Shown here: one piece after another, positions 29,205 through 45,669 of the stretch
How the letters are laid out: every line of letters begins with the position of its first letter
How positions within the stretch are numbered: position 1 is the first letter of the stretch
NCBI RefSeq assembly: GCF_018881605.1
Contig: NZ_JACVPZ010000001.1
Location: 1,426,001 to 1,490,000, forward strand
DNA: 64,000 nt
Source: Polynucleobacter sp. UB-Tiil-W10
Lineage (GTDB): Bacteria; Pseudomonadota; Gammaproteobacteria; Burkholderiales; Burkholderiaceae
Direction: 5' to 3'
Notes under the pieces: model-generated
Told to the model about the DNA's origin: nothing
Database searches by the model: none
The model's input: the letters and a program-made list of their open reading frames with translations, nothing else
Translations under genes and position numbers: made by a program

Positions 29205-29912
29205 TTAGTCGGTGAGCAGCTCTTGTTGTAAGTAGCGTTTAGCTGCTGGTGTTTGAGGATTGTTAAAGAAGGGGCCTACGGGTCCCTTTTCTTTTATTTC
29301 CCCTTGGTCAATAAAGATAATGTGTTCAGCTAGTCTTTGTACTTGGGCAAGTTGATGGGATGAAAAAATCACATTAACTCCCTGGCGGTCAAATTGACGG
29401 ATCAACTCTTCAACTTGTTCGGTAGTCTTGGGATCGAGATTGGCAGTCGGCTCATCCAGTAAAACCAAATTGGGTTTTTGAAGAATTGCTCTTCCAAGGC
29501 AAACCTTTTGTCTTTCACCGGCAGATAATTTATGCGCTGGGCTGTTAGCTAGCTCGCTTAAACCTACTTGCTCAATCACGCGATCTATATCAGCATTCTC
29601 AATGGACCTATCCGCGTCACAAACCATTGTGATATTGGTTTTAGCTGAGGTTTTGATCATTGGTGTGTGATGTAAAACCAAAGCCGTTTTTGTTTTGAAG
29701 GAGTAACTTACCGTCCCGCTATCTGGCTTGATGAGGCCGTCTAGAAGTTTGAGAAGAGTGGTTTTGCCTGCACCATTAGGGCCAATGCAGGCTGTGATTC
29801 TGTCTGCTGGAATAATGGCATGGGGGATGTTGAGAATAGTTCTGCCATTGCTCTTGACGATGATTTCCTTGAGTTCAATGAACTTTTCGAAATTATCTGC
29901 AGCATTAACCAT
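29205..29912 (-). CDS. tupC: ABC transporter ATPase, tungstate/molybdate type
   Basis: A 235-residue ABC ATPase, shorter than ModC, in the size range of tungstate TupC. Walker A is GPNGAGKTT, signature LSAGERQK, Walker B LVLLDEPTA with D/E, and a switch histidine in FSSHQ. It starts at ATG 29912, which overlaps the permease stop; GGAG seven bases upstream fits. A longer frame from 29942 overlaps the permease more. No TOBE domain is visible. The neighbouring fdh operon supports a W or Mo role; which oxyanion is inferred. Its tail codes the fdh terminator on the other strand. Confidence 0.85.
   Translation of the reverse strand: MVNAADNFEKFIELKEIIVKSNGRTILNIPHAIIPADRITACIGPNGAGKTTLLKLLDGLIKPDSGTVSYSFKTKTALVLHHTPMIKTSAKTNITMVCDADRSIENADIDRVIEQVGLSELANSPAHKLSAGERQKVCLGRAILQKPNLVLLDEPTANLDPKTTEQVEELIRQFDRQGVNVIFSSHQLAQVQRLAEHIIFIDQGEIKEKGPVGPFFNNPQTPAAKRYLQQELLTD
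29269..29298 (+). terminator. fdh operon terminator inside the tupC gene
   Basis: AAGGGGCC (29269-29276), loop TACG, GGTCCCTT (29281-29288), then TTCTTTTATTT. The stem is 8 bp with one G-U pair, and the loop is a UACG tetraloop closed by C-G, a very stable type. It lies about 65 bases past the last fdh stop, within the 3' coding part of the opposite-strand tupC gene (GPVGPFF region). Confidence 0.75.
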
Positions 29913-30600
29913 AGCGGCGCTCCGCAATTTGACGGACTGCAAAAGTAAATAGATTGGCTAGTAAAACAATGGTCAGTAGAACCATGCCTAGCGCAAGGGC
30001 TAAAGGCAAATCACCTTTACTGGTTTCCAAGGCAATAGCAGTGGTCATCGTTCTGGTGGAGTGATCAATATTGCCGCCGACGATCATGACAGCCCCAACC
30101 TCTGAAATCGCTCTAGCCAGGCCGGCAAGGATGGCAATCGTAAGCGAGAAGCGACAATCCCATATCAACCACTTAAAACGGGATAGAGGTGGCAATCTCA
30201 GACTTAGAAAGGAGTCGCGATGGATCTTCCACGCGTCTTCCAGTATTTGTCGGCTGAGGGCGGCAATTAAAGGGGTTGTGAGCAGTGTTTGAGCGACGAT
30301 CATGCCTTTGACTGTAAATAGCCAGCCCCATACTCCAAGAGGCCCCGTACGGGAGAGCATGAGGTATACCAAGACACCCACAATGACTGTGGGCACTCCC
30401 ATTAGGGTATTGAGGGTCACAATAATCGTTTTTTTACCTACAAACCGTTCGGTGGCCAGTAGGGCGCCGATAGGAAGACCTAAAAGTGTCCCAATCAAGA
30501 GGGCGCTTAGGCTTACTTGCAAGGAAACCCAGACGATTCCCAATACCCCTGCATCTAGATGGGCAAGCAAGGAAAGGGCGTCTTGAAAAGCTTTCAACAT
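29905..30600 (-). CDS. tupB: ABC permease, tungstate type (TupB-like)
   Basis: A 231-residue permease with five or six membrane segments. The conserved binding-protein-dependent loop is ARAISEVGAVMIVGGNI, which matches the tungstate/TupB-type sequence well. The ATPase gene overlaps its end, but no substrate-binding protein (TupA) is encoded on either side. The start codon is 3 bases from a hairpin and has no SD. It diverges from the BFD-like gene. With FDH next door, it likely feeds metal to the cofactor. Confidence 0.85.
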   Translation of the reverse strand: MLKAFQDALSLLAHLDAGVLGIVWVSLQVSLSALLIGTLLGLPIGALLATERFVGKKTIIVTLNTLMGVPTVIVGVLVYLMLSRTGPLGVWGWLFTVKGMIVAQTLLTTPLIAALSRQILEDAWKIHRDSFLSLRLPPLSRFKWLIWDCRFSLTIAILAGLARAISEVGAVMIVGGNIDHSTRTMTTAIALETSKGDLPLALALGMVLLTIVLLANLFTFAVRQIAERRYG

Positions 30601-30603
30601 GCG

Positions 30604-30618
30604 CTTGATTCTATCAAG
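30604..30618 (-). promoter_or_regulatory. 15-base palindrome just before the tupB start
   Basis: CTTGAT, TCT, ATCAAG (30604-30609 and 30613-30618) is a perfect inverted repeat ending 3 bases before the tupB ATG, where an SD would be expected. As RNA it folds with a 3-base loop. It could be an operator or could limit ribosome access; both are inference. Confidence 0.4.
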
Positions 30619-30666
30619 GCAATGGCAAAATGACTGTAATGAGATTGATTCCCCTATTTTTGACCT

Positions 30667-30867
30667 ATGGCTGAAGTGGTTTGCCTCTGTAATGAGGTCC
30701 TCGACGTGGATTTGCGCGATTATTTAGATGCTCACCCGATAGACTCGATTGACGAGTTGCGGGAGCAGGCATCGATTTGTAATAAATGCATGCAGTGTCA
30801 GGATCTCGTTGAGGGCGAGATCTACTTAGCGCGAGTTAGACGACAGCGCGCAGCGGGACAGTTCTAA
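30667..30867 (+). CDS. BFD-like [2Fe-2S] protein
   Basis: A 66-residue protein with a BFD-like [2Fe-2S] domain: CLCNEV near the N-terminus and CNKCMQC near residue 38. This resembles bacterioferritin-associated ferredoxin, which helps iron release from bacterioferritin, but the family also occurs in other redox roles. The CX2CX2C at the second site gives one more cysteine than the usual CX2C. It starts after a 66-base divergent gap with tupB, and its stop overlaps the next start as TAATG. Confidence 0.8.
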   Translation: MAEVVCLCNEVLDVDLRDYLDAHPIDSIDELREQASICNKCMQCQDLVEGEIYLARVRRQRAAGQF

Positions 30868-37008: not shown

Positions 37009-37033
37009 ACTGCTTCAGGCTGAGTCCCGTTAG

Positions 37034-37063
37034 ATGCCGGCGCGCTTTTTGCCGGCATTTTTC
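37034..37063 (+). terminator. Terminator after bdhA
   Basis: ATGCCGGC (37034-37041) pairs with GCCGGCAT (37051-37058) across a GCGCTTTTT loop and is followed by TTTTTC. A rho-independent terminator for the hydroxybutyrate dehydrogenase gene. Confidence 0.85.
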
Positions 37064-37089
37064 TTAGCCCAAACAAAAACCCCAGAATA

Positions 37090-37113
37090 GTCTATAGTTA
37101 TCGAAAAATAGAC
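37090..37113 (+). promoter_or_regulatory. Inverted repeat in the sodB promoter region
   Basis: GTCTAT (37090-37095) and ATAGAC (37108-37113) form a perfect inverted repeat with a 12-base spacer, 40 bases before the sodB ATG. The arrangement looks like a dimeric operator overlapping the promoter; the regulator is not identifiable. Confidence 0.35.
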
Positions 37114-37152
37114 CACATTTTGCTTAATGTAATTAAAAGGAATATAGATCAA

Positions 37153-37731
37153 ATGGAACACACATTACCTCAGTTGCCATATGCACTGGATGCTTTAGCT
37201 CCATATATCTCCAAGGAAACTTTGGAGTATCACTATGGTAAGCACCACCAAACTTATGTCACTAATTTGAATAATTTAATCAAAGGCACTGAGTTTGAAA
37301 ATGCTTCTCTTGAAGATATTGTTAAGAAATCAGCAGGTGGTGTTTTCAATAATGCCGCACAGGTTTGGAACCATACGTTTTATTGGTTGGGAATGAAGCC
37401 AAATGGCGGCGGTGCACCTACTGGCGCATTGGCCGATGCCATTAATGCTAAGTGGGGTTCATTTGATAAATTCAAAGAAGAGTTTACAAAGTGCGCTGTA
37501 GGAACTTTTGGATCAGGCTGGGCTTGGTTGGTAAAAAAAGCAGATGGCAGTCTCGATCTAGTATCTACTAGCAATGCTGCAACCCCGCTTACTACGGATG
37601 CAAAAGCACTGCTTACCTGCGATGTTTGGGAGCATGCTTACTATATTGATACTCGTAATGCGCGACCAAAATATTTGGAAAATTTTTGGAATTTGGTTAA
37701 TTGGGATTTTGCAAATCAAAACTTTGCTTAA
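37153..37731 (+). CDS. sodB: Iron superoxide dismutase SodB
   Basis: A 192-residue Fe-type superoxide dismutase. Metal ligands lie in [18 protein letters not shown], and [26 protein letters not shown] is conserved. It lacks a signal, so it is cytosolic. The ATG at 37153 matches the family N-terminus ([13 protein letters not shown]) and follows AAAGGAA; a TTG at 37120 would add eleven unlikely residues. The next gene follows closely, and the rubrerythrin-OxyR group is nearby, giving a compact oxidative-stress area. Confidence 0.95.
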
Positions 37732-43507: not shown

Positions 43508-43699
43508 TCAGTTATTAAGCCTGACCTTGGCGCTGAGTTCGTTTACTGCGCCCCGTTTATCTACTTGGGAGAGTCTCAGAGCTTCAACTTCAAAGTCTAG
43601 TTGTCCAGGATGAAATTCTTCGTCATTTCGCAGGTGAATGACATAGGTCCAGACCAGTTCGCGACCACGGTTTTTAAAGACATCAACTACACGTTTCAT
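43508..43699 (-). CDS. Hypothetical protein, 63 residues
   Basis: A 63-residue soluble protein (starts MKRVVDVFKNRG) with no known domain that I recognise. The ATG at 43699 is preceded by AAGGCGG, a fair SD, and lies 23 bases after the bestrophin-like gene on the same strand, which supports a real gene. Charged and hydrophobic residues alternate in a globular way. Unknown function. Confidence 0.55.
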   Translation of the reverse strand: MKRVVDVFKNRGRELVWTYVIHLRNDEEFHPGQLDFEVEALRLSQVDKRGAVNELSAKVRLNN

Positions 43700-43722: not shown

Positions 43723-44523
43723 TTATTTATTACCGACAGATGGGCTACTTACATTCATCTGTTGAGCGAGGTTATTTTTTAATGCCACCAAGTTTCTGGC
43801 CTCAATACGAATGACCCCGCCCCTAGGGCTATCAATATCAGCAATTAAAAAGAAGGATACTGAAACGACAAAAGGGAAGATCATGAATAGACCAATATTC
43901 TTCTCAAAATTGCGCGCACCAAATCCGACCAAGAGGTTGGCGCAAATGGCGATCGCTGCCATCAATGCCCAGGCCGTAAAAGGGATGCGGTTCCACCAAG
44001 CAGCTTGTGCGTAACCTTGGGAATTAAGAACCTCATTCATGCCGGAGGCAACTAGTGCCATGACTGGGGTGGCCTGCGTGCGAACAGTCGGAAGAATTTC
44101 ATTCCAAAGGGCAGTTTGCAATTGATCTGTTTTACTGCGGATTTCTTGAATCTTATCTGGACTCTGTTTTGAATAAAACAGAATGCGTTGGTCTATGTAT
44201 TGAAGGAGTAAATCTTTAGTCGCTGCCGACGCTTTAGGGGGCAGTAGATCAGCCCTTAAATACTCAGTTCCAATGGCATTTGCCTCGCCCTCCTCAAATA
44301 CCTCTCGCTGATCATGGCGATCAATAGCCATTGAAAAAGTAAAGCCAATAATCAGGGCTAACAAAGTTAATGTAGCCGTCTGAATAATGCCGAGATCTGC
44401 AGATGTCTCTGTGTCTTTTGTACGGAAGCGACCCAGTATGGCGTGCCCAAACCAAACGGAGAAGGAAAATACTAGGATCGATATGCCAAAGATTGCAAGA
44501 GGGTAGTTGAGGAGATGAAAAAT
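43723..44523 (-). CDS. DUF4239 bestrophin-like membrane protein (ATT start)
   Basis: A 266-residue DUF4239 (bestrophin-like) membrane protein. The first helix (LAIFGISILVFSFSVWFGHAI) and the family core LLALIIGFTFSMAIDRHDQR, EEGEANAIGTEYLRADLLPP are intact; a C-terminal pair of helices follows. The frame runs upstream without an ATG, GTG or usable TTG until the lldD stop, so the apparent start is ATT at 44521-44523, with AGGA nine bases upstream in lldD. A TTG at 44364 would delete the first helix. Probably an ion channel; unproven. Confidence 0.75.
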   Translation of the reverse strand: MFHLLNYPLAIFGISILVFSFSVWFGHAILGRFRTKDTETSADLGIIQTATLTLLALIIGFTFSMAIDRHDQREVFEEGEANAIGTEYLRADLLPPKASAATKDLLLQYIDQRILFYSKQSPDKIQEIRSKTDQLQTALWNEILPTVRTQATPVMALVASGMNEVLNSQGYAQAAWWNRIPFTAWALMAAIAICANLLVGFGARNFEKNIGLFMIFPFVVSVSFFLIADIDSPRGGVIRIEARNLVALKNNLAQQMNVSSPSVGNK

Positions 44524-45669
44524 TTAAAAGGTTCCTGGATACAAAATATCTTTAGTTACATTCTGAATATCGCGATGGCCAGTAAATGCCATAGTGATAT
44601 CCAACTCGTTATGAATAATCTCTAAGCACTTGGTTACACCTGCTTCACCCATAGCGCCCAATCCATAGAGGAATGGGCGACCAATCATTGTGCCGCGTGC
44701 GCCCAAGGCCCATGCTTTTAGAACGTCTTGACCTGAACGAATACCGCCGTCCATCCACACTTCGATGTCCTTGCCAACAGCATCCACAATTCCAGGTAAG
44801 GCCTGAATGCTAGAGATCGCGCCATCTAATTGACGACCGCCATGGTTGGAAACAATTAATGCATCTGCCCCAGAGTTTGCTGCTAAGCGAGCATCACCTT
44901 CATCCAAGATTCCTTTGATGATGAGTTTGCCGCCCCAAAGTTTTTTGATCCACTCAACATCACCCCAATTAAGCCCTGGATCAAATTGCTCTGCAGTCCA
45001 AGAGGATAGGGAGGACATATTGCCTACACCGGTAGCGTGCCCAACAATGTTGCGGAAAGTTCTACGCGGCGTCATTGCCATTCCAAGACACCAGCGAGGC
45101 TTGGTGGCCATATTGATCATATTGGCAATCGTCAGCTTAGGAGGGGCTGAGAGACCATTCTTTAAATCCTTATGACGCTGCCCTAGGATTTGCAAATCTA
45201 AGGTTAAAACGAGAGCAGAGCATTTGGCTGCTTTAGCGCGCTCAATCAAGCGCTCAATAAAGCCGCGATCTTTCATGACATAGAGTTGAAACCAAAATGG
45301 TTTCGTAGTGCGCTCTGCGACATCTTCAATTGAGCAAATGCTCATAGTAGACAAACAGAATGGCACACCAAATTTCTCGGCAGCTTGAGCTGCCAATATT
45401 TCACCATCAGCATGTTGCATGCCAGTAAGGCCAGTAGGCGCAAGAGCAACTGGCATTGCCACTTCTTGACCGACCATCGTTGTCTTGGTGGTGCGGTTAG
45501 TCATATTTACTGCTACACGCTGGCGCAGCTTAATCTTTTGAAAATCAGATTCATTGGCGCGGTAGGTTGATTCAGTCCATGATCCAGAGTCAGCATAGTC
45601 ATAGAACATCTTGGGGGTGCGTTTTTGATGGAGGACCCGCAAGTCTTCTATATTGGTAATGATTGCCAC
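44524..45669 (-). CDS. lldD: FMN-dependent L-lactate dehydrogenase LldD-like
   Basis: A 381-residue FMN alpha-hydroxy-acid dehydrogenase oxidising L-lactate (or a related 2-hydroxy acid) into the respiratory chain. The active-site motif SNHGGRQLDGA, catalytic FQLYVMKDR, VLTLDLQILGQRHKD and DGGIRSGQDVLKAWALGA are present. The DUF4239 frame begins directly after its stop codon. Substrate choice between lactate and other 2-hydroxy acids is inferred from family similarity. Confidence 0.88.
   Translation of the reverse strand: MAIITNIEDLRVLHQKRTPKMFYDYADSGSWTESTYRANESDFQKIKLRQRVAVNMTNRTTKTTMVGQEVAMPVALAPTGLTGMQHADGEILAAQAAEKFGVPFCLSTMSICSIEDVAERTTKPFWFQLYVMKDRGFIERLIERAKAAKCSALVLTLDLQILGQRHKDLKNGLSAPPKLTIANMINMATKPRWCLGMAMTPRRTFRNIVGHATGVGNMSSLSSWTAEQFDPGLNWGDVEWIKKLWGGKLIIKGILDEGDARLAANSGADALIVSNHGGRQLDGAISSIQALPGIVDAVGKDIEVWMDGGIRSGQDVLKAWALGARGTMIGRPFLYGLGAMGEAGVTKCLEIIHNELDITMAFTGHRDIQNVTKDILYPGTF

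Follow-up and report, generated by a model that had tools for sequence, protein, structure and literature searches.

A bestrophin-like gene of Polynucleobacter with a conserved, putative AUU start codon directly behind lldD

The gene for a bestrophin-like membrane protein (PF14023, formerly DUF4239) of Polynucleobacter sp. UB-Tiil-W10 almost certainly starts on AUU, judging from comparison of the locus across the genus, where the triplet is identical in 110 of the 114 genomes that carry the gene 0-2 nt behind the dehydrogenase gene lldD. The explanation that we favour, and consider likely, is that this AUU would act as a coupled, IF3-disfavoured start of low output behind lldD.

Gene arrangement behind lldD and the predicted protein

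The window analysed here is a stretch of 64,000 nucleotides from a genome of 2.04 Mb. On its minus strand an FMN-dependent alpha-hydroxy-acid (L-lactate type) dehydrogenase is encoded at 44524-45669 (381 codons; PF01070, E 2e-136), for which we took over the name lldD from the first-pass annotation, and the gene ends ...CCA GGA ACC TTT TAA with its stop codon at 44526-44524. An ATT triplet (44521-44523, minus strand) adjoins the TAA with a gap of 0 nt and in the frame of lldD, and from it the bestrophin-like gene (43723-44523, minus strand) runs without interruption for 266 codons to a stop codon at 43725-43723, confirming the first-pass description of a DUF4239 frame that is intact from the TAA and ATT onward, to which we add the strand. 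The Shine-Dalgarno-like AGGA reported nine bases upstream of ATT was likewise found (44533-44536, minus strand), lying within the Pro-Gly codons of lldD. The first in-frame ATG, GTG or TTG of the bestrophin-like gene in this genome is a TTG at codon 54 (44362-44364, minus strand), which is the sole canonical codon among the first 60, and the preceding 53 codons form the longest run before a first canonical start among the 58 non-overlapping frames of at least 150 codons in the window.

Other frames in the window also attracted attention. A small open frame with its own ATG lies 23 nt past the bestrophin-like stop codon (43508-43699, minus strand; beginning MKRVVDVFKNRGRELVW); it had no Pfam match in the profile scan and is perhaps a third gene of the operon. 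An open frame of about 272 codons at 29905-30720 (minus strand) extends 41 codons ahead of its first ATG, GTG or TTG, with no Pfam match to the whole frame, and another frame with a long pre-canonical run (1-1131) is truncated by the window edge. The frame at 37024-37728 was rejected as a further non-canonical start, as it encodes a superoxide dismutase and already has a canonical codon at position 33, ahead of the domain, which starts at residue 45.

The predicted bestrophin-like protein matched PF14023 over residues 16-243 of 266 (E 1e-13; 51.9 bits against a curated cut-off of 32), and an AlphaFold2 model built from 58 sequences (mean pLDDT 88.6) placed helix 1 at residues 8-28 (44440-44502, minus strand) and helix 2 at residues 38-93. 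In VIA-align the model matched the bacterial bestrophin channel KpBest (6iv3_A) with Z 16.1 and rmsd 4.3 over 248 aligned residues (model 7-258 to 16-289) and VCCN1 with Z 13.8, and the first non-bestrophin row followed at Z 11.9; helical bundles can reach Z of about 13 by chance, and the KpBest rows lie above that. Foldseek gave a best E of 4.8e-05 between bestrophin structures and the model. The match stands above those to unrelated helical proteins, and in the model helix 1 is part of the bestrophin fold. Translation from codon 54 or 65 would delete helix 1, and any internal canonical codon used in this genome would leave it out of the product. This agrees with the first-pass claim that no ATG, GTG or TTG is available without losing the helix, since a start at TTG54 would remove helix 1 together with part of helix 2.

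Selection on the N-terminus was estimated from 160 pairs of genes more than 80% identical, out of 3000 sampled. Over codons 2-53 pN/pS was 0.146 (0.316 for codons 2-20 and 0.075 for codons 21-53), compared to 0.038-0.124 in the four blocks that span codons 54-245, and it rose to 0.396 in the tail (codons 246-266). This pattern shows a bestrophin-like N-terminus under purifying selection, in a frame that reads as protein from its first codons on. A gene finder restricted to ATG, GTG and TTG would choose TTG54, and the true start might be sought in such an internal canonical codon (TTG54 here), with a non-protein part upstream. However, although TTG54 is present in 42 of the 106 intact genes compared, it is not conserved, and 13 of the 106 have no ATG, GTG or TTG in codons 2-60 at all; the earliest nearly fixed internal canonical codon is ATG65 (105/106), with none conserved before it. 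Together with the low pN/pS over codons 2-53 and the alignment of helix 1 with bestrophin structures, this makes an internal start highly improbable.

Conservation of the ATT triplet and of its Shine-Dalgarno-like codon

A search of 186 genomes of the genus gave matches in 127, and 125 loci were fetched from 124 genomes, leaving out G123 and G166 (weak matches), G169 (match spread across contigs) and, apart from that of G110, any second, distant matches. Eleven of the 125 fell outside a gap of 0-2 nt to lldD (L150, L151, L153, L155-L160, the broken L161 and the remote L163); in L150 the gap is 11 nt and an ATG lies four codons earlier. Besides the 110 ATT codons, the 114 remaining genomes carry ATC once (L125), ATG twice (L148 and L149) and TTG once (L147), and ATT at this frequency is far beyond chance. 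The first-pass annotation had left room for a lost start codon, or a sequencing error, in this one genome, and had proposed a comparison with relatives to decide. A single genome alone cannot exclude either, but the identical triplet in 110 separate genomes refutes both, and we regard their probability as negligible. The comparison thus spoke for ATT, and a canonical codon at the site turned up only in three genomes of a sister lineage (TTG in G068, ATG in G039 and G040), which indicates the ancestral state and not an error in this genome.

For a codon-by-codon comparison we used the 106 intact ATT or ATC genes. A gene was taken as intact from 250 open codons upward, which includes L081 with its early stop after 253; five broken genes among the 114 (L073, L087, L152, L154, and L162) were set aside. 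Codon 1 was ATT in 105 and ATC in one of these genes, a constancy matched only by Trp and Met columns, and codon 2 took 21 different forms. In the 14 further columns where Ile is conserved (in at least 85% of genes) the commonest codon accounted for 52-83%. On the gene tree, parsimony required 0, 0, and 1 changes at the three positions of the start codon, where the medians over 263 columns were 6, 1, and 29; the single third-position change compares with 11-31 in the 14 other Ile columns. The column is thus unlike an ordinary Ile codon in its substitution pattern, as a start codon would be, and the comparison shows the AUU triplet itself to be under purifying selection across the genus. With one ATC among the 111 non-canonical starts, ATT is not absolute. 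In the genome with this only ATC variant (G108), the infC locus (L203) also begins with ATC.

The distance between the lldD stop codon and the start codon is 0 nt in 68 of the 114 genomes, 1 nt in 45 and 2 nt in one, and the extra base in the 1-nt set is T, A or G. The conserved start therefore lies within a few nucleotides of the upstream stop codon, as in a coupled gene pair. Where the two frames are identical and one stop codon apart, as in those 68 genomes, the arrangement would also suit a programmed read-through of the lldD UAA giving an LldD-bestrophin fusion, with ATT as a plain Ile codon. However, in the other 46 genomes a shift of 1 or 2 nt puts the gene out of frame with lldD and yet ATT (ATC in one) is unchanged, which read-through of the stop codon cannot explain. 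An internal Ile codon should moreover swap between ATT and ATC as the 14 other Ile columns do, and read-through leaves unexplained the conservation of the Shine-Dalgarno-like codon described below, so that we consider it very unlikely. An upstream in-frame canonical codon was absent from 37 of the 46 genes with a gap of 1 or 2 nt and sporadic in the other nine. The gene thus has a conserved non-canonical triplet and no canonical codon able to serve as its start, except in 4 of the 106 intact genes, where one as early as codon 2 or 4 could serve. RNAalifold found no conserved RNA structure over the start site (0 pairs; 46 of the 111 ATT or ATC sites, about -60 to +60).

The short Shine-Dalgarno-like motif of the bestrophin-like gene lies in a Gly codon of lldD, the third codon from its end (column 378 in zero-based numbering), and its conservation was judged against other Gly codons. 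Among the 105 of 114 lldD genes with 381 unbroken codons back from the stop, a filter that also admitted the ATG or TTG species where they passed it, this codon was GGA or GGG in all 105, compared to 1-60% at 34 other conserved Gly columns. A relative of lldD (E <= 1e-100) was found in 56 of the 59 genomes in which the bestrophin-like gene was not matched, and of the best 30 of these loci, which were read, 29 could be parsed (all but L215). The Gly codon was GGA or GGG in 4 of the 21 lldD genes with neither the gene nor an ATT at +0 or +1, and in 8 of 8 with no gene match but an ATT at +0 or +1. Fisher's test of 105/105 against 4/21 gave p 1.3e-17, a value that is overstated because related genomes are treated as independent. 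The comparison shows that the SD-bearing codon of lldD has been kept SD-like chiefly in genomes that have the bestrophin-like gene. The same loci speak against the idea that ATT is conserved because the end of lldD needs it, as 21 of the 29 lldD ends without the gene have no ATT at +0 or +1. By eye, seven of the eight gene-less ends with ATT look like deletion remnants (L217-L219, L221, and L223-L225) and the eighth (L238) like chance. In L218 and L219 (G084 and G014) the gene has apparently been deleted, leaving TAA-T-ATT and a few codons; a frame that opens with ATGAAGCG is found about 36 nt past the lldD stop codon in both.

Taken together, the conservation of the triplet, the selection on the N-terminus, the conservation of the Shine-Dalgarno-like codon and the frame-shifted clade strongly support the first-pass proposal of a true ATT start.

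Origin and loss of the ATT start, and the starts of infC and pcnB

Phylogenetic analysis of 125 proteins with outgroups placed the 106 ATT rows, the ATC row among them, in one group (support 91/86) that needs one change and was recovered in 96% of 200 bootstrap trees. Its sister consists of the ATG or TTG species together with L150 (support 93/82). The support values are moderate, and several of the outgroups sit on long branches. A quick tree with the first residue removed from every row again gave one ATT group (SH-aLRT 86). Eight homologues within the genus (L151, L153, and L155-L160; about 49-55% identical) carry an ATG that either coincides with the site or precedes it by 3 to 12 codons, and no lldD was found in the stretches fetched for them. 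Similarly, in six Burkholderia and Paraburkholderia loci ATG stands at the site in five and one codon before it in L068, with no lldD match in these six loci. A wider family search gave matches in 169 of 398 genomes, the genus included, and among the matches listed, those from other genera do not exceed about 53% identity. Together with the trees, the presence of ATG at or near the site in homologues and outgroups suggests that ATG was probably the earlier state and that ATT arose once.

The gene was not matched in 59 of the 186 genomes, some of which are incomplete, and it is visibly broken in 5 of the 114, indicating that it is dispensable. Broken copies retain ATT, as expected of recent decay, and the identity of the triplet alone therefore proves no function in any single genome; for this reason the argument for function rests on the substitution pattern among intact copies. 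A weak start is not required everywhere, since the sister species begin the gene with ATG or TTG at that position.

We also read the starts of infC and pcnB in the genus. In 50 infC loci (L164-L213; 50 of 160 matching genomes) the conserved first codon, apparently the start, was ATC in 40 and ATA in 10, and by eye no canonical codon lay between the in-frame stop codon and the ATC or ATA in 48 of the 50. The translation system of the genus thus seems to cope with starts that IF3 disfavours, and from the known biology of infC we expect that IF3 autoregulates infC here as well. The infC gene of the genome under study (L194, G000:C2:1692642-1693545) has AAAGGA ahead of its start, and the ten ATA loci all come from genomes without a match to the bestrophin-like gene. 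A candidate that was discarded is pcnB as another ATT gene of the genus: matched in 41 of 41 genomes and read in 20 loci, it shows an in-frame ATG no later than codon 19 of the open frame in 19 of the 20, and in L270 the first canonical codon is TTG.

Possible mechanism and relation to known systems

We infer from established biology the following steps. Ribosomes that finish lldD at UAA, or 30S subunits that have loaded onto the AGGA within lldD, would start anew on the adjacent AUU, where fMet-tRNA would be mispaired at the third base, and IF3 would destabilise the mispaired complexes, so that a small fraction of the LldD ribosomes would make the channel. Sensitivity to IF3 would follow from the AUU codon itself. 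The purpose would most likely be a low, lldD-linked amount of an anion-channel-like protein that may be harmful in excess. By analogy with known systems, the AUU start is probably both weak and coupled to lldD. Published work bears on these steps: AUU is listed among the non-canonical starts discriminated by IF3 (PMC4611024), and E. coli re-initiation is described as aided by an SD, lower with stop-start distance and reduced by excess IF3 (PMC2268962). In S. aureus reporters, starts on AUU or AUA reached about 10% of the AUG level in poor medium (PMC13009471).

The first-pass annotation had also suggested self-limiting control. Self-limitation belongs to infC, the product of which, IF3, is itself the discriminating factor. 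The product here is a bestrophin-like protein (PF14023) and not IF3, so the loop cannot close and the suggestion fails as worded; its nearest viable reading would be that IF3, as the product of another gene, limits the bestrophin-like gene. A further step, that the level of IF3 is used as a signal through the AUU start, is possible by analogy but rather doubtful. Equally tentative is the idea that the channel may be a second IF3-governed output, with synthesis per LldD ribosome rising as free IF3 falls.

A plainer reading is that AUU is the true start and a mere dosage reducer: little channel is needed, a weak start was fixed early, and the level of IF3 is uninformative. It overlaps our preferred explanation, differs from IF3 signalling only in denying IF3 that role, and has in our judgement an even chance of being right. 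The single origin of ATT and the frequent absence of the gene fit selection for a low amount. Also in favour of this reading, the AUU start of cvfC1 showed no medium effect in S. aureus (PMC13009471). On the other hand, the occurrence of one ATC and no ATA among the 111 non-canonical starts hints at something narrower than any weak start, a scarcity qualified by ATT also being the starting state on the tree. Between a dosage reducer and IF3-signalled control, nothing in the sequence separates the two.

Non-canonical starts of this kind are already known, from infC, pcnB, sigR, cvfC1, and ccpN. The IF3-autoregulated infC, with its AUU, AUC or AUA start, resembles the bestrophin-like gene in that a non-canonical AUN start is conserved over a lineage; an ATT start is given for infC of Xanthomonas (PMC5559785). 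The bestrophin-like gene differs from infC in having a channel-like membrane protein as its product, hence no self-limiting loop, and in its short SD inside the upstream gene, whose stop codon adjoins the start. Likewise, sigR of Streptomyces is a gene other than infC whose expression a non-canonical start keeps down; that start is conserved within one genus, and other genera give no evidence of it. Its GTC start is repressed by IF3, as was shown experimentally, and sigR has an extensive RBS and is the first of a coupled pair (PMC5472188). In contrast, the bestrophin-like gene is known from comparison only, has a short SD and is the second gene of its pair. Conserved AUU and AUA starts outside infC are also described for cvfC1 (AUU) and ccpN (AUA) of Staphylococcus; the conserved non-canonical starts of S. 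aureus have strong, extended SDs and cvfC1 is first in its operon (PMC13009471), unlike the bestrophin-like gene, which directly follows a stop codon.

The fold of the model is common to KpBest, yet identity to KpBest is about 11-16%, the Pfam family is PF14023 and channel activity of the bestrophin-like protein is a prediction. The E. coli pcnB gene is said to use an AUU start to limit expression, as proposed here for the bestrophin-like gene, although pcnB of the genus mostly has ATG. To our knowledge, few bacterial genes outside infC start on AUU. A search of the open-licence literature, which is no proof of absence, found no published account of the start of the bestrophin-like gene and no publication on Polynucleobacter and bestrophin. 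What is new is the gene, encoding a predicted bestrophin-like channel, the near-fixation of ATT through a genus, and the position of the start, which adjoins a stop codon and has its short SD within the upstream gene. As gene finders limited to ATG, GTG, and TTG miss AUU starts, the bestrophin-like protein is likely truncated or missed in Polynucleobacter annotations.

With ATT kept in 110 of 114 species-level genomes despite changes of frame, and with a sister lineage that uses ATG or TTG, the genus offers a natural experiment on the purpose of weak starts and on whether re-initiating ribosomes follow the codon rule of IF3. If the channel is indeed a second IF3-governed output, membrane anion conductance in Polynucleobacter would depend on how the initiation machinery stands as well as on lactate oxidation, an arrangement that would have been kept across the genus since a single change from ATG to ATT.
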